From positions 6,384,501 through 6,448,500 of the forward strand of contig NC_092616.1 in assembly GCF_047663525.1 (NCBI RefSeq): a DNA stretch of 64,000 nucleotides, in the 5' to 3' direction. The position numbers and the translations under genes were made by a program. The notes under the pieces were generated by a model that worked only from the letters and a program-made list of their open reading frames with translations, had not been told where the DNA came from and did no database searches. Position 1 is the first letter of the stretch. Each line of letters starts with the position of its first letter. The DNA is from Anas platyrhynchos. Its lineage: Eukaryota; Chordata; Aves; Anseriformes; Anatidae. This document shows positions 637 through 52,000 of this stretch, one piece after another.

Positions 637-707
637 TCAGGGCGGGGCCATGTCCTGAAGCTCCGCCCCCAGCCCCGCCCCCGCCATGTTCTCATAGGAG
701 CCGGCGT
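637..707 (-). CDS. CD19: CD19 last coding exon with PI3K site YENM and stop
   Basis: DAGSYENMAGAGLGAELQDM then APP and TGA (637-639). Mammalian CD19 ends with DADSYENM plus a short glycine-rich tail. No AATAAA or ATTAAA is visible on the minus strand between here and base 1. Confidence 0.96.
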
Positions 708-3700
708 CTGGGGGGGGGGGGGGGAAACGTGTCACACGGCCCCAAAATCGCCCAAATTCACCCCAAAATCCCCACACCCCCCAAATCCCCTCAAAATTCC
801 GCCCAAAGCCCCTCAAATTGCACAAAATCCCCAAAATTCCCCCAATATCCCCAAATTCCCCCCAAACCCCTTAAATTCCCCCCCCAAAAAAACTAAATTC
901 CCCCAAATTCACCCCCAAAATCCCCCAAAATCCCCCAAATTACCCCCAATCCTCCCCAAATTTCCCAAAATTCCCCAAATTCACCCCAAATCCCCCAAAT
1001 ATCTCCCAAATCCCCTAAATTCCACCCAAAACCCCCTAAATTCCCCCAAATCCCCCCAAATTCTCCCAAATCCCCTAAATTCTCCCAAACCCCCCCCAAA
1101 TCCCCTAAATTCCACCCAAAACCCCCTAAATCCCCTAAATTACCCCAAAATACCCCCCAAATTCCCCCAAATCCCCTAAATTCCACCCAAAACCCCAAAT
1201 CCCCCAAATTACCACCAATCCTCCCCAAATCCCCCCAAATCCCCCAAATTTCCCCCAAATTCCCCTGAATCCCCTTAATTCCCCCAAATATTCCCCAAAT
1301 TTCCCCAAATTCACCCCCAAATCCCCCAAATTTTCCCCCAAGTCCCCCAAAATTCCCCCAAATTCCCCAAATTCCCTAAATTTTCCCCAAAATCCCCCCC
1401 AAATCCCCCAAATTTCCCTCCAAATCCCCCCAAAATGCCCCCAAATCCCCCAAATTTTCCCCAAATCCCCCAAATTTTCCCCAAAATCCCCCAAACTCCC
1501 CAAAATCCCCCAAAATGCCCCAAAATGCCCCAAATCCCCCCCTCACCGTCCTCGGGTGCCGGCGCTCTCCCGGGGGCCGATCTCGGGGCCCCTCCCCCCC
1601 CCATGTCCTCGTAGGGCTGAGAGCCTGGGGGGGGGGGGGGGGGCACCGTGACCCCGTGACCCCTCCATGACCCCCCCATGACCCCATGACCCCCCATGAC
1701 CCCTCTGTGACCCCTTGACCCCTCCATGACCCCATAACCCCCAATGACCCCATAACTTCCCATGACCCCTTAACCCCAACTTGACCCCGTGACCCCTCCC
1801 TGACCCCATGACCCCTCCGTGACCCCATGACCCCCCCATGACCCCATGACCCCTCCGTGACCCCATGACCCCTCTGTGACCCCGTGACTCCCCCATGACC
1901 CCATGACCCCTCCATGACCCCGTGACCCCTCCGTGACCCCGTGACCCCCCCGTGACCCCATGACCCCTCGTGACCCCATGACCCCTCTGTGACCCCATGA
2001 CACCCCCATGACCCCATGACCCCTCCATGACCCCATGACCCCCCCGTGGCCCCATGACCCCTCTGTGACCCCGTGACCCCTCCATGACCCCATAACCCCC
2101 AATGACCCCATAACCTCCCATGACCCCTTAACCCCAACTTGACCCCGTGACCCCTCTGTGACCCCGTGACCCCTCCGTGACCCCGTGACCCCCCCGTGAC
2201 CCCTCCGTGACCCCGTGACCCCTCGTGACCCCGTGACCCCTCCATGACCCCATGACCCCTCCGTGACCCCATGACCCCTCTGTGACCCCATGACCCCCCA
2301 TGACCCCTTAACCCCTCCGTGACCCCGTGACCCCTCCATGACCCATGACCCCTCGTGACCCCTCCATGACCCCGTGACCCCTCCGTGACCCCATGACCCC
2401 TCCGTGACCCCATGACCCCTCCATGACCCCCCCGTGACCCCATGACCCCTCCATGACCCCATAACCCCCAATGACCCCATAACCTCCCATGACCCCTTAA
2501 CCCCAACTTGACCCCGTGACCCCTCTGTGACCCCATGACCCCTCATGACCCCGTGACCCCTCCATGACTCCCCCATGACCCCTCCGTGACCCCGTGACCC
2601 CTCCGTGACCCCGTGACCCCTCCGTGACCCCATGACCCCCCGGTGACCCCGTGACCCCCCCGTGACCCCGCTCACCGGCCGAGCCCTCGCTCCTCCCCTC
2701 CAGGCGCTCGCCCGCCCCCCGCAGCACCCGCTGCAGCCCTGCGGGATTTGGGGTCAATTCGCGGGATTTTGGGACATTCGGGGGGATTCGGGGTTTGGGG
2801 GACATTTGGGACATTTGGGGTTCCATTTTGGGGCCATTTCAGGGATTTTTGGGGCCATTTCAGGGATTTTTTGGGGCCATTTAGGGGATTTTGGGGCCAT
2901 TTGGGGGAATTTGGGGTCATTTTGGGGCATTTTAAGGGATTTTGGGGGCACTAAGAGGATTTTTGAGGTCATTTGGGGCCATTTTGGGGATTTTGGGGGC
3001 CTTTTGGAGGATTTCGGGTTCCATTTTGGAGCTGTTTCAGGGATTTGGGGGCCATTTAGGGGATTTTGGGGTCCATTTTGGGTCCATTTAGGGGCTTTTG
3101 GGGCCATTTGGGGGAATCTGGGGTCATTTGGGGGCCATTTAGGGGATTTGGGGGCTCATTTTGGGGCCATTTAGGGGATTTTTGGGGCCATTTAGGGGAT
3201 TTTTGGGTCCATGTAGGGGCTTTGGGGGCCATTTGGAAGGATTTGGGGGCTCATTTTGGGGCCATTTCAGGGATTTTTGGGGCTATTTAGGGGATTTTTG
3301 GGGCCATTTAGGGGATTTTTGGGGCCATTTAGGGGATTTTGGGGTCCATTTCGGGGCTTTGGGGGCCATTTGGAAGGATTTGGGGTCATTTTGGGGCCAT
3401 TTCAGGGATTTTTGGGGCCGTTTAGGGGCTTTTGGGGCCATTTGGAAGGATTTGGGGTCATTTTGGGGCCATTTCAGGGATTTTTGGGGCCATTTAGGGG
3501 ATTTTTGGGTCCATTTAGGGGTTTTTGGGGCCATTTAGGGGATTTTTGGGCTCATTTTGGGGAATTTGGGGCTCATTTTGGGGCAATTTCGGGGATTTTT
3601 GGGGCCCCTCACCTGCCAGCAGCCGCACAGCTCCGGGCCCGAGCTGACCCCGATCCCCCGGGGGGCACCCGGCACCTTGGGGGGGGGGGGCACTTGTGGG

Positions 3701-6700
3701 GCAGCCCCACAGCGCCCCCCCCCCCAGGCCTTGGGGGGCGTCTATGGGGCAGCTCTGCCCCATAAGTGCCCCCCCCCCCCCCGAGTTACCTGCCCCATAG
3801 CGCCCCGCGGCCGCCTCCGGCTCGTTCTCGTAGCTCCCTGGGGGGAGGTTGGGGGTCAGGGGGTGCTATGGGGCACGCTATGGGGCAGCTATGGGGCAGC
3901 TATGGGGTGCTAGGGGGTGCTATGGGGTGTTATGGGGTGCTGTGGGGTGCTATGGGGCAGGCTATGGGGCGCTATGGGGTGCTGTGGGGCACGCTATGGG
4001 GTGCTATGGGGCAGGCTATGGGGTGCTATGGGGTGCTATGGGGCAATATAGGGTGCTATGGGGCACGCTATGGGGTGCTATTGGGCAGGCTATGGGGCGC
4101 TATGGGGTGCTATGGGGCAGGCTATGGGGCGCTATGGGATACTATGGGGCAGGCTATGGGGCGCTATGGGGTGCTATGGGGCAGGCTATGGGGTGCTATG
4201 GGGCGCTATGGGGCAATATAGGGTGCTATAGGTTGCTATGGGGCAGGTTATGGGGTGCTATGGGGCGCTATGGGGCAGGCTATGGGGTGCTATGGGGTGC
4301 TATGGGGCAGGCTATGGGGTGCTATGGGGTGCTATAGGGAAGGTTTTGGGGTGCTGTGGGGCACGCTATGGGGTGCTATGGGGCAGACTATGGGGCGCTA
4401 TGGGATACTATGGGGCAGGCTATGGGGCGCTATGGGGTGCTGTGGGGTGCTATGGGGCAGCTATGGGGCAGCTATGGGGCAGGTTATGGGGCACTATGGG
4501 GTGCTATGGGGCAGGCTATGGGGTGCTATGGGGTGCTATGGGGCAGCTATGGGGCAGGTTATGGGGCACTATGGGGTGCTATGGGGTGCTATGGGGCAGG
4601 TTATGGGGCGCTATGGGGCACTATGGGGTGCTATGGGGCAGGCTATGGGGCAGCTATGGGGCAGCTATGGGGCAGAGGTTACCAATGGAGCTCCGCGCCG
4701 TGGGCACCGCCAGCTCGTTCTCATAACCATCTGTGGGGCAGGGGATCAGTGGGGCTGGCCCCACAAGTGCCCCCCAGCCCCATAAGTACCCCCCAGCCCC
4801 ATAAGTACCCCCCTGCCCCACATCTCACCGCTGGGGCTGTCGCTGTCGGGGTCCTCGTAGCCTTCCTCCTCCTCCTCCTCCTCCTCCCCCTCTTCCTCGG
4901 GGCCCCAGCCCCACGGCGGCGTCACCGGGGGCTGCGCCGTGGGGCTGGCAGGACCCACGGCGGGGGCTGTGGGGCAGGTGTGGGGCAGGATGGGTCGGTT
5001 ATGGGGCAGGTGTGGGGCAGGGCTGAGGTTGTGGGGCAGGTGTGGGGCAGATGTGGGGCAGGATGTGGGGCAGGATGGGTTGGTTATGGGGCAGGATGGG
5101 GGATATGGGGCAGGTGTGGGGCAGGATGTGGGGCAGGTGTGGGGCAGGATGGGTTGGTTATGGGGCAGGTGTGGGGCAGGGCTGAGGTTGTGGGGCAGGT
5201 GTGGGGAAGGATGTGGGGCAGGATGGGTTGGTTATGGGGCAGGTGTGGGGCAGGACGGGAGATGTGGGGCAGGATGGGGGATGTGGGGCAGGTGTGGGGC
5301 AGGATGTGGGGCAGGATGGGTCGGTTATGGGGCAGGGCTGAGGTTGTGGGGCAGGACAGGAGATGTGGGGCAGAACAGATTGGGGTCACGGGGCAGGTGT
5401 GGGGCAGGGCTGAGGTTGTGGGGCAGGGCAGGGGATGTGGGGCAGATGTGGGGCAGGTGTGGGCAGGATGTGGGGCAGACTCACCGGGGGCAGCCGTGGG
5501 GCCGAGGACGTTCCCGTAGCGCCCGGGGGAGTCGGGGGCCGTCACCCGAAAGAACCTGGGGGCAGCGGGGTGAGCAGTGGGGCCTGCCCCATAGCGGCCC
5601 TGCCCCATAGATAACACCCCCTGCCCCATAGATGCCCTGCCCCATAGATATCCCGCCCCATAGCTGCTGTGGGTCACGGCTACCCCAATCCCATAGGGAC
5701 CCACGCCCCATAGATTCTCCCGCCCCATAGATCTCCTGCCCCATAGATCTCCCACCCCATAGATCTGCCCCATAGATCCCCTGCCCCATAGATTTCCCTG
5801 CCCCACACCTGCGGTCCCAGAGCTGCTGCTGCTGCCGCCTGCGTCTCCGCCGAGCTGTGGGGCAGAAATGGGGGGGGGGGGGCACAGTTGGGGGTCCTGA
5901 GCGCCCCACATCCCCCCTGCCCCACACATCCTGCCCCACAACCGCCCCCTGCCCCACATCCCTGCCCCATATATCACCCCCTTCCCACCCCACATCTCCC
6001 AGCCCACACCCCTCCAGCCCCACACCCCCAGCCCCACATCCTGCCCCACGCCCCCCAGCCCCACACATTCTGCCCCACACATTCCCTGCCCCACATCCTG
6101 CCCCACAACCACCTCCAGCCCCACATCTCCCACCCCACACCCCCAGCCCCACAACCACCCCCAGCCCCACACATTCCCTGCCCCACATCCCAGCCCCACA
6201 CCCTCAGCCCCACACCTCCAGCCCCACAACCACCCCCTCCCACCCCACACCCCAGCCCCACACATTCTGCCCCACACCCCCAGCCCCACACATCCCTGCC
6301 CCACACATCCCAGCCCCACATCTCCCACCCCACACCCCCCAGACCCACACATCCTGCCCCACAACCACCCCCCTGCCCCACACATTCCCAGCCCCACACC
6401 CAGCCCCACAACCACCCCCCTGCCCCACACATCCCAGCCCCACAACCACCCCCTGCCCCACATCTCCCACCCCACACCCCCAGCCCCACACCCAGCCCAC
6501 AACCACCCCCAGCCCCACACCCCCTGCCCCACACCCCCAGCCCCACACATCCCAGCCCCACACCCCCCACCCCACACATCCCCCCCCCACCTGCACACCC
6601 CCTGAGCCCCACGAGGACGCCGCCCCCCAGCAGGAGGTAGAGCAGCCCCACGGCCGCCACCGGGCCCCCACGGCCCCACTGGGACGGCCACAGCCCTGGG

Positions 6701-9700
6701 GGGGGAAATGGGGGGGGGGTCAGGGACACCAGGACAAACCCACAGCCCCCAGAACCCCCCCCGTGACCCCCCCATAACCCCATAGCCCCCCCATAACCCT
6801 ATAACCCCCCCGTGACCCCATGACCCCCCCCATGACCCCCCTTGACCCCATAACCCCCCCATAACCCCCCCGTGACCCCCCCTTGACCCCATAACCCCCC
6901 CTTGACCCCCCCATGACCCTATGACCCTCCCCATAACCCCATAACCCCCCCTTGACGTCCCCATAACCCCCCCGTGACCTCTGACCCCCCCCGACCCCAT
7001 AACCCTCCTTGACCCCCCTTGACCCCAAATGACCCCATGACCCCCCCCGTGACCCCCCCGACCCTATAACCCCCCATGACCCCCCCATGATCCCGTGACC
7101 CCCCCATGACCCCAAGACCCCCCCTGTGACCCCAAATCCCCCCATAACCCCCCCTTGACCCCCCCATAACCCCATAACCCCCATGACCCCGTGACCCCTC
7201 TTGACCCTATAACCCCCCCTTGACCCCATAACCCCCTCCGACCCTATAACCCCCCCATTCCCCCCATTTCCCCCCATAACCCCCCCATGACCCCCCTTTA
7301 ACCCCCCATAACCCCAAGACCCCCCCCATGACCCCCCCGGCCCCATAACCCCCCCATAACCCCCCCATAGCCCCCCTTTACCCCCCCATAACCCCATGAC
7401 CCCAAATGACCCCTATGACCCCCCCGTGACCCCCCCGTGACCTCTGACCCCCCCTTGACCCCATGACCCCCCCATGACCCCCCTTGACCCCATAACCCCC
7501 CCATTCCCCCCCCTTGACCCCCCATAACCCCATGACCCCATGACCCCATGACCCCCCCGTGACCCCCCCGTGACCTCTGACCCCCCCTTGACCCCATGAT
7601 CCCCCCATGACCCCCCCATGACCCCCATGACCCCAAATGACCCCATGACCCCCCCCGACCCTATAACCCCCCATAACCCCCCCTTGACCCCCCATGACCC
7701 CATGACCCCATGACCCCCCCGTGACCCCATGACCCCCCCATGACCTCTGACCCCCCCTTGACCCCATGACCCCCCATGACCCCCCATGACCCCAAATGAC
7801 CCCATAACCCCCCCCTGACCCTATAACCCCCCCCATAACCCCCCATAACCCCATGACCCCATGACCCCCCCGTGACCCCATGACCCCCCGTGACCTCTGA
7901 CCCCCCCCCGACCCCAAATCCCCCCCCCTCACCGTCCGGCCCCACCACCTCCAGCTCCACGTCCCTCCAGCCGCTGCCGTTCCCGGGGGGGGGCTCCCAA
8001 ATTTGGGGGTCCCCCCCCCCCTCCTCCCCCCACCCCCCCACCCCTCCCACGCCCCCCCCCCCCCAACCTCCCAGGGCCCCCCCCCCTCCTCCAGGCCGCC
8101 CCCCCCCAAAACGAGGGGGGGTCCCGAAAAAAGGGGGGGTCCCGAAAAGGGAAGGGGGGGCCCGGAATTCGGGGGGGGGGTCCCAAATTTCGAGGGGGGG
8201 GGCCCAAATTTTGGGGGAGGGGGCCCGGGTTTCGGGGGGGTCCCAAATTTTGAGGGGGGGGTCCCAGATTTTTTGGGGGGGGTCACAAATTTTTCGGGGG
8301 GGTCCCAGATTTCGGGGGGGGGTCCCCAAATTTTTTCGGGGGGGGCTCCCCGCCTTTTGGGGGGATCCCGGATTTTTCGGGGGGGGTCCCAAATTTTTTG
8401 GGGGGGGTCCCAAATTTTGGGGAGGGGGGAGAAGGGAGGGGGGGGTCCTCGTCGAACCCCCCCCCCTCCCAAAATTGGGGGTCCCAGAGCTGGGGGGGGG
8501 GGTCCTCGAAGGGGTCCTCCCCGGGGGGGGGGGGGTCGGGCCCCGCCCCCCCCCCCCAAAAACAGCGGTACCCCCCCCCCTCCCCCCACGTGACCCCCCC
8601 CAGGGCCAGGGCCCCCCCCGGGCCGAGCCCCGCCCCCGGCGCCGCCCACCCCCGGAGGAGGGGGGGGGGGGGTTGGGGGTCCCCCCCCCTCCTCCCCCCC
8701 CCCCCCCAGGCGCCACCACGTGACCGAGGTGGGGGGGGGAGGGGTGGGAATTTTTTTGGGGGGGGGGGGTCCCAATTTTGGGGTGGCCGCAGGGGAGCTC
8801 GGCCCAGCCCCCCGGGGGGGCCCAAACTTGGACGGCGCCTGCAAAAAAAAAAAAGGGGGGGGATTTTGGGGAGAAAAAAGGGGAAAATGGGAAAAAAAAA
8901 AAGAGGGGGTGAGAGGGGGCAAAGGGACCCGAATCGCCCCAAATCAGCCCAAAATGAGCCCAAATCCTCCCAAAATGACCCAAAATGACCCCAAATTCGC
9001 CAAAATTCCCCCCAAAAATGACCCAAATTCTCCAAAATGCCCCCAAATGGCCCCAAAACCACCCTAAATGACCCCCAATCCTCCCAATACCCCCCAACTC
9101 CCCCTGAAATGACCCCAAATTCTCCAAAATCCCCCCAAAATGACCCCAAATGACCTCAAATCCTCCCAATACCCCCCCCAAAATCCCCCAAATCCCCCCC
9201 AAACCCCCCAAATTCCCCCCAATACCTTCAAAATCTCCCCAAAATGACCCAAATCCTCCAATAGCCCCCCAAATGACCCCAAATTCTCTGAAATTTCCCC
9301 AAAATGACCCGAAATTCTCCAAAATCCCCCCAAAATGACCCCAAATCCTCCCAAAATGCCCCAAAATGACCCTAATTCCCCCCAAAATGACCCAAAATTC
9401 TCCGAAATGCCCCCAAAATGCCCCCAAATGGCCCCAAAACCGCCCTAAATGCCCCCAAATCCCCTCAAAAGCCCCCAAAGCGACCTGAAATGACCCAAAA
9501 CACCCCAAAATCCCCCAAAATGACCCCAAATGACCCCAAATCCTCCCAATACCCCCCAAATCCCCCCCGAAATGACCCCAAATTCTCCAAATCCCCCCAA
9601 AATGCCCCAATGACCCCCCCAAACACCCCCAAAATCCTCCAAATCTCCCAAAAAGGCCCCCAAAATGCCCCAAAATCCCCCCAAATCCCCCAAAATGCCC

Positions 9701-12700
9701 CAAATCCCCCCAAAATGACCCCAAATCTCCCCAAGTCTCCCAAAATGCCCCCAAATCTCCCCAAACGCCCCCCAAAACCCCCCAAAATTCCCCCCAAATC
9801 CCCCAAAATCTACCCAAATTGCCCCCAATACCTGAAAATTCTCTCCAAAATGTCCTAAATCCCCCCAAAATGCCCCGAAATCCCCCAAAATTACCCCCAA
9901 ACCCCCCAAATCCTCCCAAAATCCCCCCCAAAATCCCCACATTTCACCCCCAAATCCTCCCCAGTCCCCTAAAATCCCCCCAAATGCCCCCAAATCTCCC
10001 TAAATCCACCCCAAATATCCTCAAATGTCCCCAAATCTCCCCAAATTCCCCCCAAATCCCCCCAAATGACCCGAAATCCTCCTAAATCCCCCCCAAAATC
10101 TCCCCAATCCCCCCAAATCCTCCCAAGTGACCCAAATTCCCCCCAAAAAGACCCAAAATTCTCCAAAATCCCCCCCAAAAAACAAAAAGGCCCCCAAAAC
10201 ACCCCAAATCCCCCCCAAATGCCCCCAAAATCCCCAAAATCCCCCCCTAAATCCCCCAAACCCCCCAAATCCCCAAAATTCCCCCAAGATCCCCAAATTT
10301 ACCCCCAAATCCCCCGAAAATTTCCCCAAAATGCCCCAAAACCCCCCAAAATCCCCCCAAAATTCCCCAAAATTCCCCCAAATCCCCCCAAAATCCCCCC
10401 AAAATCCCCCCAATTTCCCCAAAATCCCCCAAAATCCCCCAAAATCCCCCAAAATCCCCCCAAAATCCCCCCAAAATCCCCACATTTCCCCCTCAAATTC
10501 TCCCCAAACCCCAAAATCCCAAAATCCCCCCAAAATCCCCCCAAAACTCCCCCAACCCCCCAAATCCCTCTTTAGCCCCGCCCCTTTAAGCCCCGCCCCC
10601 TCCAGGCCCCTTCCCCTGGCCCCGCCCCCTCCAGGCCCCGCCCCCTTTAGGCCCCGCCCCTCACCTCCCAGCATCACGTGCACGGTGCCGCCCCTCCCCC
10701 CGCCCCCCCCGCAGTCGTAGCGCCCGGCCTGGCCCCGCCCCACGTGACGCAGCCGAAGCTCCGCCCCTTCCGGTCGGGGGCGGAGCAAGGGGCGGCCCTG
10801 GTGGAACCAGCGCGGGGGGGGCGTGGCCAAGCCGCCGGGGGGCGGGGCCAGGCGGCGGGGGGGCGTGGTCAGGTTCCCGGGGGGCGTGGTCTCGTTGCCG
10901 GTGGGCGGGGCCTCAGGGGGCGTGGTCGCGGAAGGGGGCGGGGCCACCGGGCAGCGCAGGGTGAGGGAGGAGCCCGGGGAGACGGCGACGTACTGGGTGC
11001 CTGCGGACCAGTATAAACCAGTAAGGACCAGTATGGACCAGTATAAACCAGTATAAACCAGTATAAACCAGTATGGACCAGTATAAACCAGTACGGGTCT
11101 GTACGGGTCAGTACGGGTTGATATGGACCAGTTAAACCAGTATAAACCAGTATACACCAGTATAAACCAGTATGGACCAGTACGGGTCTGTATGGGTCAG
11201 TATGGGTCAGTACGGGTCAGTACAGGCTGATATGGACCAGTATAAACCAGTAAGGACCAGTATAAACCGGTATGGACTGGTATGGGCCAGAATGGATATA
11301 GGCCAGTATTAACCAGTATAAACCAGTATGGACCAGTAAGGGTCAGTACGGGCTGATATGGACCAGTATAAATCAGTATAAACCAGTATAAACCAGTATG
11401 GACTGGTATGGACTGGTATGAGCCAGCATGGGTATAGGCCAGTATAAACCAGTATGGGCCAGTATAAACCAGTATGGGCCAGTACGGGTCAGTACGGGTC
11501 AGTATGGGCTGATATGGACCAGTTAAACCAGTAAGGACCAGTATGGACCAGCATGGGTATAGGCCAATATAAACCAGTATAAACCAGTATGGACCAGTAC
11601 GGGTCAGTATGGGCTGATATGGACCAGTATAAACCAGTAAGGACCAGTATAAACCAGTATAAACCGGTATGGACTGGTATGGGCCAGAATGAGTATAGGC
11701 CAGTATAAACCAGTATCAGCCAGTATAAACCAGTATTTACCAGTATGGGTTAGTATAGGCCAGTATGGACTGGTATGGACCAGTATAAACCCGTAAGGAC
11801 CAGTAAGGACCAGTATGGACCAGTACGGGTCAGTACAGGTCAGTACAGCTCAATACGGGCTGATATGGACCAGTATAAACCAGTATGGACCAGTAAGGAC
11901 CAGTATGGACCAGTATAAACCAGTATAAAAAATTCCCCCCCTCCCCAATTACCCCCCTTTTACCCCTCCCAACCCCCCTCATTTCCCCCCTTACCCCCCC
12001 AATTCCTTTTATCCCCCCCCAAATTTTTTACCCCCCCAAATTATTTTTTCCCCAAATTTTTTTGTCCCCCCCCAATTTTTTTTTCACCCCCCAAAATTTT
12101 TTTTACCCCCCCAAATTTTTTCCCCCCTTCAAATTTCCCCCCCCCAAATTTTTTTCACCCCCAAATTTTTTTCACCCTCCCCAAATTTTTTTTACCCCCC
12201 CCCTTTTTATTTTTTCCCCCCAAATTTCCCCCCCCAATTTTTTTTCACCCCCCCAAATTTTTTTTTTAGCCCCAATTTTTTTACCCCCCCCAAATTTCCC
12301 CCCCCCCAATTTTTTCCCCCCCCAATTTTTTTACCCCCCTAAATTTTTTAATTTTTTTTACCCCCCCCAATTTTTTTTACCCCCCAATTTTATTTCCCCC
12401 CCTCCCCAAATTTTTTTACCCCCCCCCAAATTTTTTTCACCCCTCCCCAAATTTTTTCTTCCCCCCCCTAATTTTTTTTTTCCCCCCAATTTTTTTTCAC
12501 CCCCCCATTTTTTTTATCCCCAATTTTTTTCACCCCCCAAATTTTTTAATTTTTTTCACCCCCCCCAATTTTCCCCCCCCCCAAATTTTTTTACCCCCCC
12601 CAAATTTTTTTTGACCCCCCCAATTTTTTACCCCCCCAAATTATTTTTTTCCCCTTTTTTTTTCACCCCCCCAAATTTTTTAATTTTTTTCACCCCCCCC

Positions 12701-15609
12701 CCAATTTTTTCCCCGCCCCCCCCAAATTTTTTGACCCCCCCCCAAATACTCACGGCTCCCCCCGACGTTGAGCAGCGCCCGGTGCCGCCCCCCCCCCGCC
12801 CCCCCGCAGACGTAGACCCCGGCCTGGGGGGGCCCCACCCTGGGCAGCAGCAGCGCCCCCCCTCCCCAACCCCACCCCCCCCCCCCCCCGCCAGGGCCAG
12901 CAGGGGGGGGCCCCACCACCCCCCCTGACCCCCCCCTGACCCCCCCTGACCCCCCCCGGGCCCCCCCCCCCGGCGCACCCAGAGGATGCGGGGGGGGAGG
13001 GGGCGGGGGGGGAGGGGGGGGAGGGGGGGGCAGGGGGGGGGTCGAAGCAGGGGAGGAGGACGGGGTGGGACACTGGGGGGGTAATTAGGGGTAATTAGTT
13101 AATTAGGGGGGGTAATTAGGGTGATTAATTAATTAAGAGGGTTAATTAGGGTCATTAATTAGGGTCATTCATTAATTAGGGTCATTAATTAGGGTGATTA
13201 ATTAATTAAGAGGGTTAATTAGGGTCATTAATTAGGGTCATTCATTAATTAGGGTCATTAATTAGGGTGATTAATTAATTAAGAGGGTTAATTAGGGTCA
13301 TTAATTAGGGTCATTCATTAATTAGGGTCATTAATTAGGGTCGTTGATTAATTAGGGTCGTTAATTAGGGGTGATTAGGGTCGTTAATTAGGGTAATTAA
13401 TTAATTGGGGTGATTAATTAAGGTAATTAGTAAAGGTTATCGATTAATTGGGGTCATTGATTAGGTGGTTAATTAATTAGGGGTCATTAATTGGGGTCGT
13501 TGATTAATTAGGGTCGTTAATTAGGGGTGATTAGGGTCGTTAATTAGGGTAATTAATTAATTGGGGTGATTAATTAAGGTAATTAGTAAAGGGTATCGAT
13601 TAATTGGGGTCATTGATTAGGTGGTTAATTAATTAGGGGTCATTAATTGGGGTCGTTGATTAATTAGGGTCGTTAATTAGGGGTAATTAGGGTCGTTAAT
13701 TAGGGTAATTAATTAATTGGGGTGATTAATTAAGGTAATTAGTAAAGGGTATCGATTAATTGGGGTCATTGATTAGGTGATTTATTAATTATGGGTCATT
13801 AATTGGGGTCGTTGATTAATTAGGGTCGTTAATTAGGGGTGATTAGGGTCGTTAATTAGGGTAATTAATTAATTGGGGTGATTAATTAAGGTTATTAATT
13901 AAGGTTATCGATTAATTGGGGTCATTGATTAGGTCGTTAATTAATTAGGGTCGTTAATTGGGGGGGTAATTAGGGTCGTTGATTGATTAGGGGAGTTAAT
14001 TAGGGTCATTAATTAGGGTGGTTGATTAGGGTCGTTAATTGATTAGGTTCATGAATTGATTATGGTTATTCATTAGGTTGGTTAATTAGGGTCATTAATT
14101 AATTTTGGTTATGAATTGATTAGGGTCATTAATTAATGGGGGGTCATTAATTGATTAGGTGGTTAATTAGGGTCATTAATTAGGGTCGTTAATTGATTAG
14201 GGTCATTAATTGATTAGGGTCATTAATTGATTAGGGTGGTTGATTAGGGTCATTAATTAATTATGGTCGTTAATTAATTAGAGTCATTAATCGATTAGGG
14301 TCATTAATTGATTGGGGTCATTAATTAGGGTGGTTAATTAGGGTCGTTAGTGAGGGGTGATTAAATGGGGGGGTGATTTTGGAGCGTAATTGGTGGGTTC
14401 ATTAGGGTAATTAATTAATTAGGGTGGTTAATTAGGGTGATTAATGGGGGTGGTTAATTAGGGTCGTTAGTGAGGGGTGATTAAGTGGGGGGGTGATTTT
14501 GGGGGGTAATTGGGGGGGTTAATTAATTGGGGGGTTAATTAGGGTAATTAATTAGGGGGTTCAATTGGGTAATTAATTAGGGGGTTAATTGGGGTAATTA
14601 ATTGGGGGGAATTAATTAGGGGGGGTAATTGGGGGAGGGGGGAAAAAATGGGGGGGGAGAGAGAAAGAGGGGCAGGAGGTCAGGGGGCTGGGGCGAGACC
14701 CCCAAACGGGCCCCCAGCCCCAAAAACCCCAAAACTGACCCAAAAACGACCCCAAAAACCCAAAACCGACCCCCAAAATCCCCCAAACCCCCAAATCATC
14801 TCCAAAATCCCCCAAACCCCCAAATCGACCCCAAAACCCCACGAATGACCCCAAAACCCCATAACCGAACCCCAAAATCCCCCAAACCCCCAAATCGACC
14901 CCAAAATCTCCAAAACCCCATAAATGACCCCAAAACCCCATAACCCCCCCCGGCCCTATAACCGACCCCAAAACCCCATAACCGACCCCAAAAAAACAAA
15001 ACTGACCCCAAAAACGCCCCCCAGAACCCCAAAGCACATAACCGACCCCAAAATCCCAAAATTGACCCCAAAAATCCCCAAAACAACGTAAATGACCCCA
15101 AAAACCCATAACCACCCCCAAAACCCTATAAACGACCCCAAAACCCATGACCCTGTCCCGGGGGGTCCCAATCTCCCCGCCCCCCACCCCACAACCCCCT
15201 ACCCCAAATCCCAACACCCCCAAACCCTAAAACCCCGTAAATCACCCCAAAACCCTATACCCGCCCCAAAAAAACCATAATTGACCCCAAAACCCCATAA
15301 ACAACCCCAAAATCCCACAAATCACCCCAAAACCCGTGACCCTGTCCCGGGGGGTCCCAATCTCCCCGCCCCCCACCCCACAGCCCCGTCCCCCAAATCC
15401 CAACGACCCCAAACCCTAAAACCCCATAAATCACCCCAAAACCCTATAACCGACCCCAAAACCCCATAATTGACCCAAAAACCCCATAAATCACCCCAAA
15501 ACCCTACAAACGCCCCCGTACCTGTGACCTTGACCCTCAGCACCCCCGGGGGGGTCCCGGCCCCCAGCCCCAAAACCAGGAGGGCCCCCAGGACCCTCGC
15601 GGCCGCCAT
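637..15609 (-). CDS. CD19: CD19 B-lymphocyte antigen gene, about 14 coding exons
   Basis: CD19 is the type I membrane signalling subunit of the B-cell co-receptor (with CD21/CD81), lowering the B-cell receptor threshold by recruiting PI3K, VAV and LYN. Exons read from high to low coordinates: signal peptide, Ig-like exons, a transmembrane exon (GLLYLLLGGGVLVGL), a basic stop-transfer exon (RRRRRRQQQQ), then small cytoplasmic exons. Family-specific matches to mammalian CD19 as I know it are FFRVTAPDSPGRYGNVL, an acidic GPEEE...GYEDPDSD exon, DGYENE, GSYENE, GSQPYEDM and the terminal DAGSYENM. Almost every junction is phase 1 GT-AG, and the frame joins across all cytoplasmic exons. YEDM and YENM fit the p85 SH2 consensus. 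Two extracellular exons have length problems in G/C runs. Three Ig-like exons are seen where mammals have two. The cytoplasmic half is near certain; extracellular details are provisional. Confidence 0.93.
712..1545. repeat. CCCCAAATCCCC array in CD19 last intron
   Basis: Units such as CCCCCAAATTCCCCCAAAAT. The same family appears at 8930-10560 and 47465-48975. Confidence 0.85.
1547..1624 (-). CDS. CD19: CD19 cytoplasmic exon with PI3K site YEDM
   Basis: 78 nt, phase 1 to 1: GSQPYEDMGGGGAPRS then APGRAPAPEDG. Mammalian CD19 has GSQSYEDM at this point. YEDM fits the YxxM consensus of p85 SH2 domains. Confidence 0.96.
1632..2668. repeat. CCCCGTGACCCCTC array in CD19 intron
   Basis: A 9-bp base unit (ATGACCCCT) grouped as about 18 bp. 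A longer block with CCCATAACCCCCAATGACCC recurs near 1730, 2090 and 2460, so a higher-order repeat of about 365 bp is present. Confidence 0.85.
2676..2738 (-). CDS. CD19: CD19 small cytoplasmic exon GLQRVLRG
   Basis: 63 nt, phase 1 to 1: LQRVLRGAGERLEGRSEGSA between CCCGCAG and GTGAGC. There is no tyrosine and no clear mammalian counterpart. It is accepted from splice sites, phase and position. Confidence 0.7.
2745..3606. repeat. GGGGCCATTTAGGGGATTTT array in CD19 intron
   Basis: Unit of about 20-22 bp. The G-rich strand is plus, opposite to the preceding intron. Confidence 0.85.
3613..3675 (-). CDS. CD19: CD19 small cytoplasmic exon without tyrosine
   Basis: 63 nt, phase 1 to 1: AGCPPGDRGQLGPGAVRLLA. 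It is placed by its splice sites (CAAG acceptor, GTGAGG donor) and preserved phase. It may correspond to the TQPVARTMDFLSP region of mammals, but similarity is slight. Confidence 0.7.
3790..3837 (-). CDS. CD19: CD19 cytoplasmic exon GSYENE
   Basis: 48 nt, phase 1 to 1: GSYENEPEAAAGRYGAG. It corresponds to the mammalian ESYENEDEEL exon, and a second tyrosine (RYGA) lies near its end. Confidence 0.92.
3842..4676. repeat. GCTATGGGGCAG / GCTATGGGGTGC array in CD19 intron
   Basis: 11-bp-scale unit. The same unit family fills TUFM and ATXN2L introns (25245-26895, 34641-35460, 43020-45050 in complement). Confidence 0.88.
4683..4730 (-). CDS. CD19: CD19 cytoplasmic exon DGYENE
   Basis: 48 nt, phase 1 to 1: DGYENELAVPTARSSIG. 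It parallels mammalian DGSGYENPED. The acceptor is CCCCACAG and the donor GTAACC. Confidence 0.93.
4829..4966 (-). CDS. CD19: CD19 cytoplasmic acidic exon with YEDP
   Basis: PAVGPASPTAQPPVTPP precedes GWGPEEEGEEEEEEEE and GYEDPDSDSPSG. It corresponds to the mammalian GPEEEEGEGYEEPDSE exon, whose tyrosine is a VAV-type site. The glutamate tract is longer here. Confidence 0.95.
4971..5478. repeat. TGTGGGGCAGGA array in CD19 intron
   Basis: Units of about 11 bp, with TGGGTTGGTTATGGGGCAGG recurring in a longer period. Confidence 0.85.
5485..5555 (-). CDS. CD19: CD19 cytoplasmic exon FFRVT...YGNVL
   Basis: FFRVTAPDSPGRYGNVLGPT matches the mammalian FFKVTPP...QYGNVLSLPT exon closely. Length 71, phase 2 in and phase 1 out, both consistent with neighbours. 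It is one of the most diagnostic exons. Confidence 0.96.
5565..5800. repeat. CCCCATAGATC array in CD19 intron
   Basis: CCCCATAGAT units of about 15 bp. Confidence 0.8.
5809..5854 (-). CDS. CD19: CD19 basic stop-transfer exon
   Basis: 46 nt encoding six arginines, four glutamines, then LWDR. It corresponds to the mammalian LRRKRKRM...PTR juxtamembrane segment. The last two bases join the next exon to give RRFF-type spacing. Confidence 0.9.
5885..6588. repeat. CCCCACACCCCCAGC array in CD19 intron
   Basis: Units mixing CCCCACACATC, CCCCACAACC and CCAGCCCCACA. Confidence 0.85.
6591..6695 (-). CDS. CD19: CD19 transmembrane exon
   Basis: 105 nt, phase 1 to 1. LWPSQWGRGGPVAAVG runs into LLYLLLGGGVLVGLRG, matching the juxtamembrane tryptophans and the ...LAYLI...LVGIL pattern of mammalian CD19. 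Confidence 0.92.
6720..7925. repeat. CCCCATGACCCCCC / CCCCATAACC array in CD19 intron
   Basis: Mixed CCCCATAACCCCCC and CCCCTTGACCCC units. It is shared with the ATXN2L intron at 39260-39975. Confidence 0.85.
7933..8838 (-). CDS. CD19: CD19 membrane-proximal Ig-like exon, possibly containing an unrecognised intron
   Basis: Acceptor TTTGCAG is followed by GAVQVWAPPGGWAELPCG (cysteine at 8789-8791). TSVTWWRLG lies near 8720, VTWGEGGGYRCFW has its cysteine at 8572-8574, and NGSGWRDVELEVVGPDG precedes the GTGAGG donor. The outer parts share one frame over 906 nt, but the middle Ig pieces lie in the other frames. About 500 bases between the second cysteine and the last strand are a G-run repeat (AAATTT + G7-8), either a coding expansion or an intron. 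Confidence 0.6.
7990..8470. repeat. G7-8 + TCCCAAATTTT array inside the CD19 membrane-proximal exon
   Basis: Units of about 25-30 bp (GGGGGGTCCCAAATTTTG). All frames are open by composition, so openness does not prove it is coding. Confidence 0.75.
8842..10658. repeat. CCCCAAAATGACCCCAAATC array in CD19 intron
   Basis: The first 80 bases are A/G homopolymer-rich. The rest is built of CCCCAAATCC and CCCCAAAATGACC units. The last 90 bases are CCCCGCCCC-rich. Confidence 0.85.
10665..11000 (-). CDS. CD19: CD19 exon 3: second Ig-like domain with Pro/Thr insert
   Basis: The frame is open and phase 1 at both ends (336 nt). TQYVAVSPGSSLTLRC leads to a proline/threonine-rich stretch with two N-x-T sequons (NET, NLT), then RWFHQG, LRLRHVGRGQAGRYDC and VHVMLGG. 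It resembles the mammalian CD19 segment with APGSTLWLSC and DAGKYYC. The long insert between the first cysteine and the tryptophan is unusual. Confidence 0.85.
11008..11930. repeat. CCAGTATAAA 10-bp array in CD19 intron
   Basis: CCAGTATAAACCAGTATGGA units, with GGTCAGTACGGG variants. It is unlike the other arrays in having no G/C runs, and its 10-bp period equals one helical turn. It contains many TATAAA cores. Confidence 0.88.
11931..12745. repeat. CCCCCCCAAATTTTTTT array in CD19 intron
   Basis: Unit of about 15-18 bp of alternating C and T runs joined by AAA. Confidence 0.85.
12754..13072 (-). CDS. CD19: CD19 exon 2: first Ig-like domain (frame interrupted)
   Basis: Acceptor CCCCCAG and donor GTGAGT flank an Ig-like segment: SHPVLLPCF (B-strand cysteine), RILWVRRG (core tryptophan) and LLLPRVGPPQAGVYVCGG (F strand with G-x-Y-x-C), ending LLNVGGS. 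These pieces lie in different frames. The length of 319 is one more than a multiple of three although both junctions are phase 1, so one net indel sits in the long G runs. Confidence 0.75.
13076..14640. repeat. TTAATTAGGGTCATTAATT array in CD19 intron 1
   Basis: Base unit of about 11 bp. It has two higher-order blocks: one of about 70 bp repeated three times near 13090-13330, and one of about 150 bp (with GTTATCGATTAATTGGGG) repeated four times near 13340-13930. Confidence 0.88.
14700..15515. repeat. CCCCAAAACCCCATAA array in CD19 intron 1
   Basis: Units of CCCCAAAACCC with CATAACCGA. A block with GACCCTGTCCCGGGGGGTCC recurs at about 15147 and 15338, so part is a duplication of about 190 bp. 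Confidence 0.85.
15522..15609 (-). CDS. CD19: CD19 exon 1: signal peptide
   Basis: It encodes MAAARVLGALLVLGLGAG then TPPGVLRVKVT, a classic secretory leader. It ends in phase 1 at a GTACGG donor. I chose the ATG at 15609 because it opens directly on the hydrophobic leader. An in-frame ATG at 15651 would add 14 residues that weaken it. Confidence 0.85.
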
Positions 15610-15774
15610 CACGGCCCTAAAAACCCCGGAACGGCCCCAAAAACTCGTCACGGCCCCAAAAAAAACCCAAAACCGCCTCCCCGGGGACCCCGCAGGTGGC
15701 GCCTGCGAAGGAGGGGGGGGGCGGGGAGGTTTTGGGGTGGATCGGCCTTTTTGAGAGGCGGAGGCCCTATAGGG

Positions 15775-18180: not shown

Positions 18181-18291
18181 CCTATAGGATTTTTGCCCCC
18201 GATTTTCAGGATTTCCCCTCCCCCCTTTGTTTTTTAACCTATTTGGGTTTTTTTTTGGGTCCCCCCATGGGATTTTTGTTCCCCCCGGTGA

Positions 18292-19565: not shown

Positions 19566-36882
<17,317 letters not shown>

Positions 36883-46000: not shown

Positions 46001-49000
46001 TCACCTGCAGGGCGGGGCTGACGTGCAGCTGGGGCAGGTAGGAGATGTAGGGGGGCCGTAGACGCCCCCCCCCTGGGGCAGCACCGGCACTGGGGGGGCG
46101 CCGACGTGGGCGGGGGCCGGAGGGGGGCGCCGCCGGCCTTGCTCTGGGGGGGGGAGAAAAAAGAGGGGGGGTTAATTAGGGGGGGGTGAGGATCTGATTG
46201 GGGTGGGGGTGAAATTAATGGGGGGGGTCTAAAAATTAATGGGGGGGGCTGAAATTAATTGGGGGGGGGCTGAAATTAATTGGGGGGGGTCCCTGAATTA
46301 ATTGGGGGGGGGTCCCTGAATTAATGGGGGGGGTGAAATTAAACGGGGGGGGTCCCAAAATTAATGGGGGGCTGAAATTAATTACTGGGGTCTGACAATT
46401 AGGGGGGGTCCCTAAATTAATGGGGGGTCCTGAATTAATTGGGGGGTGTTCCCTATGTTAAGGGGGGGGGTTCCAAAATTAAGGGGGGGTCCTGAATTAA
46501 TTATTGGGGTCCTAAAATTAAGGGGGGGTCCTTAAATTAATTGGGGGTCCTAATTAATGGGGGGGCTTAAATTAAGGGAGGAGTCCCAAAATTAAGGGGG
46601 GGGTCCCTAAATTAATTGGGGGGGGCTGAAATTAAAGGGGGGGGTCCAATAATTAATTATTTGGGGGTTCAAAAATTAAATGCGGGGGGGCCTCAAATTA
46701 AAGGGGGGTCCCGGATTAATTGGGGGGGTCCGAAATTAATTGGGGGGGCTGAAATTAAAGGGGATGTTTGAAATCAAATGGGTGTTTCTTAATCTAATGG
46801 GGGGGCCCTAATTAAGGGGGGTCAACGCCCTAATTTAAGGGGATTTCTCCCATTGGGGGCTTCTCTTAATTATGGCAGGATCCCCTAATTAGGAGGGGTC
46901 CCTTAATTAGGGGGGGTTCCCTAATTAGGAAGGGTCCCTAATTAAAGGGGATTCCTCCCATTTGGGGGGGATTCCCCTAATTGGGGGGATTCCCCTAATT
47001 AGGAGGGGTCCCTCCTAATTAGGGGGGTCCCTAATTAGGGGGGGGTCCCTAATTAAGATTAGGTCCCTAATTAAGGGGATTTCTCCCATTTGGGGGAGTT
47101 CCCCTAATTGAGGATTCCCTTAATTAGGGGGGGCTCCTAATTAAGGGGGGTGTTCCCCTAATTAGGGGGGGGTCCCTAATTAAGGGGGGGTCCCTAATTA
47201 GGGGGGGTCCCTAATTAAGGGGGTGGTCCCTAATTAAAGGGGGGTTCCAATTAAGGGGGTTTCTCCCGATTAGGGGGGGTTTCCCTTAATTGGGGGGCTG
47301 TCTCCTAATTAGGGGGGGTCCCTAATTAAGGGGGGGGGCCCCTAATTAGGGGGGGGTCCCTAATTAGGGGGGGTTAATTAGCCCCTACCACGGCCAGCAG
47401 CGGCTTCCCGGGGCTGAACTCCTTGGCGTTGGGGTTCAGCGTCGACTTCTTCACCTGCCTGCGGGGACACCCCAAAAACGCCCAAATTCCACCCAAATCC
47501 CACCCCAAAAATCCCAAATCCTACCCCAAAAACCCCAAATCCCACCCCAAAGCCCCCAAGTTGGCCCCAAAAGCCCAGGTCTGACCCCTAAAAGCCCCAA
47601 ATTGGCCCCCAAAACCACCCCAAAAGTCAAAATCCCACCCAAAAGCCCAAAGATCCAGCCCCAAAAACCCCAAATCTGACCCCAAAAACCCCAAATCCCA
47701 CCCCAAAAACCCCAAAAGACCACCCCAAAGCCCCAAATTGGCCCAAAAATGCCAGGTCTGACCCCAAAAGGCTCCAAATCGGCCCAAAAGCTCAAATCCC
47801 CACCCAAAAACCCAAATCTCACCCCTAAATCGACCCAAAAAACCCCAAATCCCACCCCAAAAAAAACAGATCCCACCCCAAAAAAACAGATCCCACCCCA
47901 AAGCCCCGATCAGCCCCAAAAGGGCCCCAAATTGGCCCCCAAAACTGCCCTGAAAGCTCCAATCCCACCCAAAACCCCAAATCCCACCCCCAAAACCCCT
48001 AAATCCCACCCCAAAAAACCCCAAATCCCACCCCAAAAAACCCAAATCCCACCCCAAAGCTCCCAGTCGGCCCCAAAAGCCCAGGTCCGACCCCAAAAAG
48101 GCCCCAAAAACCGCCCCAAAAGCTCAAATCCCACCCAAAAACCCAAATCTGACCCAAAATCTGACCCCAAAAACCCCAAAATCCCACCCCAAAAAAACAG
48201 ATCCCACCCCAAAGCCCCGAGTTGGCCCCAAAAGCCCAGGTCTGACCCCAAAAAGGCCCCAAATCAGCCCCCAAAACCACCCCAAAAAGCTCAAATCCCA
48301 CCCAAAAACCCAAAGATCCAGCCCCAAAAACCCTAAATCTGACCCCAAAAACCCCAAATCCCACCCCAAAAACCCCGAAGACAGCCCAAAGCCCCCAAAT
48401 CGGCCCAAAAATGCCAGGTCTGACCCCAAAAGGCTCCAAATCGGCCCCGAAAAACCAAAATCCCACCCAAAAGCCCAAAATCCACCCCAAAATCTGACCC
48501 AAAAACCCAAAATCCGACCCCAAAAGGCCCCAAATCCACCCCAAAACCCCGAATTGGCCCAAAAGCCCAGGTCTGTCCCCAAAAAGGCCCCAAATCGGCC
48601 CCAAAGCTCAAATCCCACCCAAAAACCCAAGATCCAGCCCCAAAAACCCCAAAATCCCACCCCAAAAACCCCAAATCCCCCCAAACGCCCCCAATTTCCC
48701 CCCCAAAAGCCCCAAATCCCCTGAACTCCCCCTAAATCCCCCCAACCCCCCCAAAAAAGCCCCAAAATCCCCTGAATTCCCCCAAAATCCCCCAAATCCC
48801 TCGAGTACCCCCCCCCCCAAAGCCCCAAAATCCCCAGAATCCCCCCCAAAATCCCCCCAGCCCCCCCCCAAACCCCCCCAGCCCCCCCCCCAAAGCCCCA
48901 AAATCCCCCAATCCACCCCAAAATCCCCCCCAGCCCCCCCAAAGCCCCAAAATCCCCGAATTCCCCCCAAAAATCCCCCCCCCCATACTCACTCGGGGTC

Positions 49001-52000
49001 GCCCCCCCGCTCCTTGTCGCCGCCCCCCCCCTTGGCCGGGGGGGGGGTTCCCGGGGGGGGCTCTCGGTGCGGGGGGGTCGGGTTCGGGTCCCCCCCCCCT
49101 CCCCCTCCCCCTCCCCCCCCCCGGCTCCTCGCCATGGGGGGGGGGCGGCGCCTCCGGGGGGGGGGGCGGGGGCGGGGGGGGGGCGCTGGGCTGAAGCTGG
49201 GGGGGGGGGGAAGAAAGGGGGGGGGGTCAGGGCCTGGGGGGCATATGGAACCCTATAGGGCCCCCCCCAACCCCAAAATCCCCCCCCCACCCTATAGGGC
49301 CCCCCCCAACCCCAAAATCCCCCTGCCCCCATAGGGACCCCCCCCCAACCCCATAGGGCCCCCCCCAACCCCATAACCCCCCCCCACCCTATAGGACCCC
49401 CCCCCAACTCCATAGGACCCGCCCCCCCACCCCATAACCCCCCCCCACCCTATAGGGCCCCCCCCCACCCTAAATCCCCCCCCACCCTATAGGACCCCCC
49501 CCACTTTATAGGGCCGCCCCCCCCTTTTTGGGGCCCCCCCCCACCAAAATCCCCCCACCCTATAAGACCCCCCCCCACTTCATAGGGTCGCCCCCCCCTT
49601 TGGGGCCCCCCCCCACCCCATAGGACCCCCCCCACCCCATAGGGGCCCCCCAACCCCAAAATCCCCCTGCCCCCTATAGGGCCCCCCCCCCGACCCAAAA
49701 TCCCCCCCCACCCTATAGGACCCCCCCAACCCCTATAGGGCCCCCCCACCCTATAGAGACCTCCTACCCCATAGAGCCCCCCCCAACCCCAAAACTCCTC
49801 CCGCCCCTGATAGGGCCCCCCACCCCATAGGCCCCCCACCCTCATAGGGCCGCCCCCCCTTTGGGGCCCCCCACCCCATAGGCCCCCCCACCCCATAGGG
49901 ACCCCTCCTACTCTTTTTTAGGGTCCTGCCCCTCCCTCCCGGGGGGCTCCACCTTGAAGTGCGCCCCGAAATCCCGCAGCTCCTCCAGTGGCTCCGCGCC
50001 TGCCTGGGGGGCACCAAAATTCGCCCAAAATCCCCCGAAATTCACGCAAAACCCCCCCCCCTTAAAAACTCACGCTTTCTGGGGCTCCAAAATGGGGGGA
50101 GGGGGGGGGGGGGCCGGGGCTTCGGGGGGGCCCCCCCCACGGCGTCTTCTGGGGGGGGTCCTGGGAGGAGGGGGGGGGGCACGGAGGGGGGGGGGGCGGA
50201 GGGGGGCAGAGGGGGGAGGGGGGAGGGGGGAGGGGCGGGGGGTTCTCCCCCGAAACCAACATAATGAGGGGGGGGGGGTCCGGGGGGGGGCGGTTTGGGG
50301 GGGCGGGGGGGAAGGAGCGGGCTGGGGGGGGGGAAAATTTAGGGGGGGGGAAAAAATTTGGGGGGGGGGAAAATTTGGGGGGGTTAAAAAAAAATTTGGG
50401 GGGAAAAAATTGGGGGGGGAAATTTGGGGGGAAAATTGGGGGTAAAAAAAAATTGGGGGGGGTCAAAAAAAAGGGGGGGTCAAAAAAAATTTGGGGGAAA
50501 AAAATTTGGGGAAATCGAAAAATTTGGGGTAAAAAATTAAAGGGGGGGGCCAAAAAAATTGGGGGGAAGAAAAATTGGGGGTAAAAAAATTGGGGGGAGA
50601 ATTTTGGGGGGTAAAAAAAATTGGGGGTAAAAAATTAAGGGGGGGTCAAAAAATTGGGAAAAAGGAAAAAATTGGGGTAAAAAATTAAAGGGGGGTAAAA
50701 AAAAAATGGGGGGAATTGGGGCAAAAAAATTGGGGGGTTAAAAAAATTTGGGGGAAAAAGGAAAAAATTGGGGGTAAAAAATTAAGGGGGGTCAAAAAAA
50801 TTTGGGGGGGGGTCAAAAAAATTGGGGGGGAATTGGGGGTAAAAAATTAAGGGGGGTCAAAAAAATGGGGGAAAAAAAAATTTGGGGGGGCCGAAAATAA
50901 TTGGGGGGCAAAAAATTGGGGGTAAAAAAAAATGGGGGGGGGGCAAAAAAATGGGGGAAAAAAATAAAAAAAAGGGGGTGAAAAAAATTGGGGGGGTCAG
51001 AAAATTGGGGGGAATTGGGGTAAAAAATTAAAGGGGGGGGTAAAAAAAATTGGGGGGTTAAAATAAATTGGGGGGGGTAAAAATGGGGGAGGGGCACAAG
51101 GAGCCCCCCCCCCCCCCGAAATTTTGGGAGTTTTGGGGGTTTTTGGGACTTACCTGGAGGCGGGGGGGGGGGCGTCGGGGGCGCCCCCCCAGCACCGAGG
51201 TTTTGCCCCCCCGGGAGGGGCGCTGGGATTTGGGGGAGGTGCGGGGGGGGGCTGAGGGTTTTGGGGTGAAAAACGGGGATTTTGGGGTAAAATGGGGGTG
51301 AAAAAACAGGGGGAAGGGGGAGGAAGGGGTTTGGGGGAAAAAGGGGGATTTGGGGTAAAAATGGGGGGGAATGGGGGAAAAGGGGGTTGGGGGGGAAAAG
51401 GGTTTGGGGGAGAAGAGAGATTTTGGTTAAAAGGGGTGATAAAACGGGGAGGAGGGGGAAGGGGGTTTGGGGGGAAAAAGGGGATTTTGAGGTAAAAAAA
51501 TAACAAGGATTTTTGGGGAAAAAGGGAGAAATTTGGGGAAAAAGGAGGATTTGGGGGAAAAGGGGTTTGGGGAGAAAAAGGGGCAATTTGGGAAAAAAGA
51601 GAGGTTGGATAAAAGGGATTTGGGGTTAAAATGTGGGATTTTGGGGTTAAAAACGTTGGATTTGGTGAAAAAAGTGAGATTTTTAGGTAAAAAAGCGTGT
51701 TTTGGGGTAAAGAGGGATTTTGGGTTAAAAAAAGAAGGATTTTGGTTAAAAAATGGAATTTGGGCTAAAAAGGGGACTTTGGGGTTAAACAAGGGGGAAT
51801 TTTGGGGTAAAAAGCGGGATTTGGGTGAAAAAGCAGGACTTTGGGGTAAAAACAGGATTTTGGGGTAAAAAGTGGTCTTTGGGGTGAAAAAGCATGATTT
51901 TGGCTTAAAAAAGTGGGATTTGGGGTCGAAAAAGTGGGATTTTGGGGTAAAAAGGGGGGAATTTTGGGGTGAAAAGGGGGGATTTTGGGGTGAAAAAGCA

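Follow-up and report, generated by a model that had tools for sequence, protein, structure and literature searches.

A probable CD19 orthologue in GC- and repeat-rich DNA of the duck Anas platyrhynchos

Human CD19 is one of the closest described systems. Like the duck locus described below, the human gene has a signal peptide, a membrane exon 5 and a tail that is spread over several exons, and its immunoglobulin (Ig) exons have putative counterparts in duck. In both species the tail reads RRFF[KR]VT, YGNVL, GYE[ED]PDS and YENE, followed by YEDM and YENM, and in both the neighbours include TUFM, ATXN2L, SH2B1 and ATP2A1. The duck tail has 7 tyrosines and the human tail has 9; SYGNP and one YEN motif of the human protein are missing in duck, whereas both YxxM motifs are kept. 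The duck gene also differs from the human gene in its arginine and glutamine runs and in a 21-nt repeat in exon 4, and its exon 3 looks Ig-like, whereas human exon 3 is a linker.

The record of CD19 in birds is scattered over several studies. A 2025 study of chicken regulatory T cells extended its reference with a chicken CD19 cDNA (GenBank OR836571) and counts CD19, with FOXP3, BST2, LAT, TNFA and EPO, among six chicken genes whose annotation is incomplete (PMC12716188). If the OR836571 record is right, at least one bird transcribes CD19. The chicken cDNA is likewise an avian CD19; it comes from a different species and is known here by citation alone, the accession being cited only in PMC12716188 within the literature searched, where a paper describing the gene was not found. 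A 2020 study speaks of no more than hints that chicken has CD19 (PMC6967738), and a chicken study of 2024 refers to the lack of markers such as CD19 (PMC11617357). In goose, CD19 mRNA is reported from spleen (PMC10935305), and in a 2026 review CD19 figures as a B-cell gene of mammals (PMC12916377). A search of titles and the starts of abstracts found no description of an avian CD19 gene; a duck annotation may exist in GenBank or RefSeq. The original prediction had implied that avian CD19 was unrecorded. This does not hold, as a chicken CD19 cDNA was already in GenBank (PMC12716188). The duck locus adds a well-located gene to a known family; it is not the first avian CD19.

Other avian genes have a similar history. 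LAT is like CD19 a GC-rich lymphocyte signalling gene, and it was missed in birds because of its GC content (PMC10079008). Unlike CD19, it is a T-cell adaptor without Ig domains, and its Pfam model finds no match in the whole duck genome, a result that does not by itself show that LAT is absent. Further hidden genes, described in PMC4539667 and PMC5913325, are GC-rich and hidden from assemblies like CD19 and belong to different families. Mallard Chr30 is named among the chromosomes with clusters of recovered "missing" genes (PMC11745021). The main text of three hidden-gene papers (PMC4290089, PMC12954441 and PMC11745021) does not mention CD19.

The duck locus is very probably the orthologue of CD19, apparently present as a single copy, whose product would be a B-cell membrane protein of type I, with breaks in exons 2 and 4 that most likely reflect the lengths of G/C runs. 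It adds exon coordinates, neighbours and repeat structure, which should help in the design of primers and antibodies and in single-cell annotation, and it shows that two PI3-kinase motifs have been retained.

Exon layout and the cytoplasmic tail

The window is the whole 64-kb stretch of DNA that was analysed (C30:6384501-6448500, C30 being the name used here for the contig). Globin genes of this genome support the bird origin that the original prediction had guessed. An adult-type beta chain is identical to PDB 3eok_B, a duck haemoglobin, at 146 of 146 residues, and the three chains listed next differ from it. For the alpha-A chain, the best match among single-globin chains is 3eok_A (306.6 bits), ahead of the greylag goose chain 1faw_A (299) and the bar-headed goose chain 1a4f_A (290.5); six fused two-globin chains have higher summed scores. 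The CD19 locus lies on the minus strand from 15609 to 637 and comprises 14 exons (Table 1). The first encodes the signal peptide, the next three show Ig landmarks, the fifth spans the membrane and the remaining nine are cytoplasmic. The exon positions of the original prediction were correct: the ATG begins at 15609, and the TGA stop ends at 637. The signal peptide and a single membrane segment are both present, as read directly from the translation by eye. The GC- and repeat-rich setting that had been described is also borne out: the GC content of the exons is 62-84 % (76.7 % over 2380 nt) and the introns consist mostly of tandem repeats. An array of a 21-nt unit (about 120 copies, 2.4 kb, window 15762-18195) starts about 150 bases upstream of the start codon.

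Table 1. Exons of the duck CD19 locus and neighbouring genes in the window (positions are those of the window)
Feature	Position	Strand	Description
CD19 exon 1	15522..15609	-	start codon, then signal peptide MAAARVLGALLVLGLGAGTPPGVLRVKVT as read by eye; exon end in phase 1
CD19 exon 2	12754..13072	-	first Ig-like exon; its landmarks fall in three frames
CD19 exon 3	10665..11000	-	Ig-like exon with one open frame; Pfam Ig_3 at E 0.00056, short of the curated cut-off
CD19 exon 4	7933..8838	-	Ig-like exon; landmarks in three frames; contains 21-nt repeat
CD19 exon 5	6591..6695	-	transmembrane segment
CD19 exon 6	5809..5854	-	basic juxtamembrane stretch
CD19 exon 7	5485..5555	-	RRFFRVT...YGNVL
CD19 exon 8	4829..4966	-	acidic run and GYEDPDSD
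CD19 exon 9	4683..4730	-	GYENE
CD19 exon 10	3790..3837	-	SYENE
CD19 exon 11 (tentative)	3613..3675	-	63 nt; tail stays in frame with or without this exon
CD19 exon 12	2676..2738	-	in frame; without tyrosine motif
CD19 exon 13	1547..1624	-	PYEDM (YxxM)
CD19 exon 14	637..707	-	SYENM (YxxM) and stop codon
TUFM	22505..35624	+	exon-bearing frames identified only at 22505-22888 and 35370-35624
ATXN2L	47377..58500	-	Pfam PAM2 in 47377-47520; second exon 58120-58500 by eye only, no Pfam family

Exons 5-14 form a single open frame that runs to the final TGA, and every internal junction has an AG acceptor and a GT donor. Of the introns among these exons, the one that separates exons 6 and 7 is in phase 2 and all others are in phase 1. 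It had been proposed that the six exons with tyrosine motifs are consecutive and have matching phases. These exons do share one frame, but they are not strictly consecutive, as exon 12 and the tentative exon 11 intervene.

The tail of CD19 is characterized by the ordered motifs YGNV, GYE[ED]P, YEN, YEDM and YENM, and this series is present in the duck locus. The two PI3-kinase YxxM motifs lie near the C-terminus, PYEDM at 1613 and SYENM at 696. A scan of all six frames of the 64-kb window for Y[EG][NDE] gave 13 matches, of which five are YE[NDE], one is YGN and seven are YGE or YGD. All five YE[NDE] matches and the only YGN match of the window fall in CD19 exons. None of the seven YGE/YGD matches does so, and two of them (6935 and 6965) are within a CD19 intron.

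A working of the duck protein can be proposed by analogy with mammals. The outer part may join a co-receptor complex with CD81 and a complement receptor (CD21). Engagement of the B-cell receptor would lead Src-family kinases to phosphorylate the tyrosines of the tail. PYEDM and SYENM would then be expected to recruit PI3-kinase and GYEDP to recruit Vav, and their recruitment may lower the threshold for B-cell activation.

The outer immunoglobulin-like exons

The outer exons are less straightforward to read. When exons 1, 2 and 3 are spliced at their best sites, the sequence as assembled meets a stop at 10915 in exon 3, because exon 2 shifts exon 3 out of its Ig-like frame. The original prediction does not mention that exons 2 and 4 fail to read in a single Ig frame. 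One frame is found through exons 5-14, and the gene as assembled does not keep one frame from start to stop. The Ig landmarks of exon 2 are distributed over three frames, with VLLPCFD in frame 2, ILWVRR in frame 1 and LLLPRVGPPQAGVYVC in frame 0. In both exon 2 and exon 4 the landmarks, which were identified by eye, are separated by G/C runs of 8-15. Homopolymer runs of at least 8 number 11 in exon 2 and 26 in exon 4, and runs of at least 6 take up 45 % of the bases in exon 2 and 41 % in exon 4, a share that does not exceed 12 % in any of the remaining 12 exons. Exon 4 also has an internal 21-nt repeat of about 12 copies at 8173-8418. The sequences of both exons were analysed unaltered, with no base changed. 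Alternative splice sites of exon 2 were considered within 60 bases of each of its ends, and two forms keep exon 3 in frame; their donors, GTCTGC and GTCGGG, are poor and the Ig end of exon 2 is lost.

Is the gene still alive? It could be argued that CD19 is dead in the duck lineage, the outer exons having lost their frame and the tail being a recent relic. The stop in exon 3 as assembled and the spread of the landmarks of exons 2 and 4 over three frames would both be expected of a dead gene. This explanation is nevertheless improbable, as the ten downstream exons retain their frame, splice sites and motifs, and the breaks occur only in the two exons that are so rich in runs of at least 6. These exons are where sequencing and replication both slip. 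Because the run-poor exons read through, a cause that lies in run length is favoured over gene death, and exons 2 and 4 probably lose their frame through run-length errors or variable run lengths.

Exon 3 is Ig-like in one frame with weak Pfam support (Table 1). Exons 2-4 were translated in three frames and aligned locally with three human Ig-region exons, giving 27 comparisons that are uncorrected for their number. The best of the 27 is weak: exon 3 in frame 2 scores 48 against human exon 4, and 2 of 300 shuffles score at least as much. The alignments of exon 2 in frame 0 with human exon 4 (matched by 9 of 300 shuffles) and of exon 4 in frame 0 with human exon 3 (25 of 300) are also weak. A PDB search with exon 3 did not return CD19 and its matches were weak and unrelated, and an AlphaFold2 model of exon 3 alone was poor (pLDDT 54). 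The middle of the Ig-like domain of exon 3 (10860-10945) is stretched by CCACGCCCC-like repeats, which encode a Pro/Thr-rich sequence that includes the sequons NET and NLT.

A tentative and rather doubtful extension of these observations is that the outer part of avian CD19 consists of three Ig-like domains and that the human inter-domain linker exon is a decayed Ig domain. On this reading, G/C runs and minisatellites are enlarging the outer exons, and the signalling tail remains constrained. If this is true, birds retain CD19 signalling with an outer part that changes fast.

Similarity of the tail and copy number

The reference for human CD19 was a sequence of 557 letters; the database entry has 556 letters. 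The membrane and tail region of the duck locus scores 199 against this reference. In 2000 shuffles the mean score was 51 (sd 8.7) and the best 95, and in a further 1000 shuffles the best was 110. The other two frames of the joined tail exons score 57 and 52 against human CD19. With runs masked, the duck tail still scores 167 against human CD19, and none of 1000 shuffles is as high.

Short motifs of the YENx kind are found in several lymphocyte adaptors, and exon 3 scores weakly as a generic Ig domain. The locus could for these reasons be some other Ig receptor or tyrosine adaptor that resembles CD19, an explanation that is very unlikely. Against LAT the duck tail scores 62, a value that 20 of 1000 shuffles reach, and against LAT2 it scores 46 (118 of 1000), compared with 199 for CD19, and the neighbours, described below, fit CD19. 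When runs are masked the score is 68 for LAT, with 1 of 1000 shuffles as high, and 46 for LAT2, with 27 of 1000. These masked scores are read as a common acidic and YEN composition. A PDB search with the membrane and tail region did not return CD19 and gave weak, unrelated matches (best E 0.076, Notch1), and a Pfam search gave no family for the tail or for exon 2. The original prediction was to be given up if another Ig-receptor family matched better than CD19. This was answered in part: LAT and LAT2, which are tail adaptors without Ig domains, fall far below CD19, and the PDB and Pfam searches with the tail were weak or empty. That the exons are a chance reading of GC-rich repeat DNA with few stops is extremely unlikely. 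Open frames do tell little here because of the DNA composition (1766 stop-free stretches of at least 15 codons in the six frames of the window), but the clustering of six motifs in CD19 exons, the shuffles and the other frames all argue against it, as does the best single stop-free stretch outside 637-15609, which scores only 60 against the CD19 tail (75 for the best inside the gene).

The identification as CD19 is supported by the alignment of the tail, the exon phases, the order of the motifs, the neighbours and the fact that no second copy was found. The last of these comes from a search of the whole genome (1.26 Gb, 42 contigs) with a tail query made up of exons 7-10, 13 and 14. With E values allowed up to 10 there were 16 matches. 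The top five are CD19 exons 8, 14, 13, 7 and 9 (E 1.4e-20 to 0.0235) and the next has an E of 0.67; exon 10 did not score in this search. Among Ig matches in the genome, none of the 150 scored (from 801 candidates) is on C30.

Neighbouring genes

TUFM, ATXN2L, SH2B1 and ATP2A1 are neighbours of human CD19 in 16p11.2. NFATC2IP and LAT are further neighbours, LAT belonging to the same human region. In the duck window, TUFM is represented by fragments of Pfam GTP_EFTU and GTP_EFTU_D3, which give 74.6 bits to 1d2e and 74.5 bits to the mitochondrial EF-Tu 1xb2, compared with at most 33.7 bits to bacterial EF-Tu. A 155-nt unit is repeated about 10 times at window 30975-32577, within the span of TUFM. 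The PAM2 motif of ATXN2L has an E of 1.6e-6.

Two more genes lie beyond the window. A Phe_ZIP domain of the SH2B family is found at C30:6451694-6451822 (52 bits), 3.2 kb past the end of the window. The Phe_ZIP profile has two better matches, on C20 and C16, and the gene beyond the window is taken as SH2B1 by its position. ATP2A1 is identified by 220 bits to SERCA1 compared with 193 to SERCA2. The order of genes around duck CD19 appears locally rearranged relative to 16p11.2. The family accessions used in these searches were PF15234, PF11976 and PF08916. For NFATC2IP, the Rad60-SLD model has 14 matches in the genome and none on C30. Head-to-tail matches to the same model at C20:4097188-4098540 and C16:4086711-4087607 are apparently polyubiquitin genes.

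Two exons were also seen before the window. About 5 kb before it is a WD40 repeat exon (L019:4631-5056), which may belong to THOC6; a PDB search does not single out THOC6. About 34 kb before the window, also on C30, is an exon with a RabGAP-TBC domain (L022:5956-6306, E 1.1e-16), which may belong to TBC1D10B.
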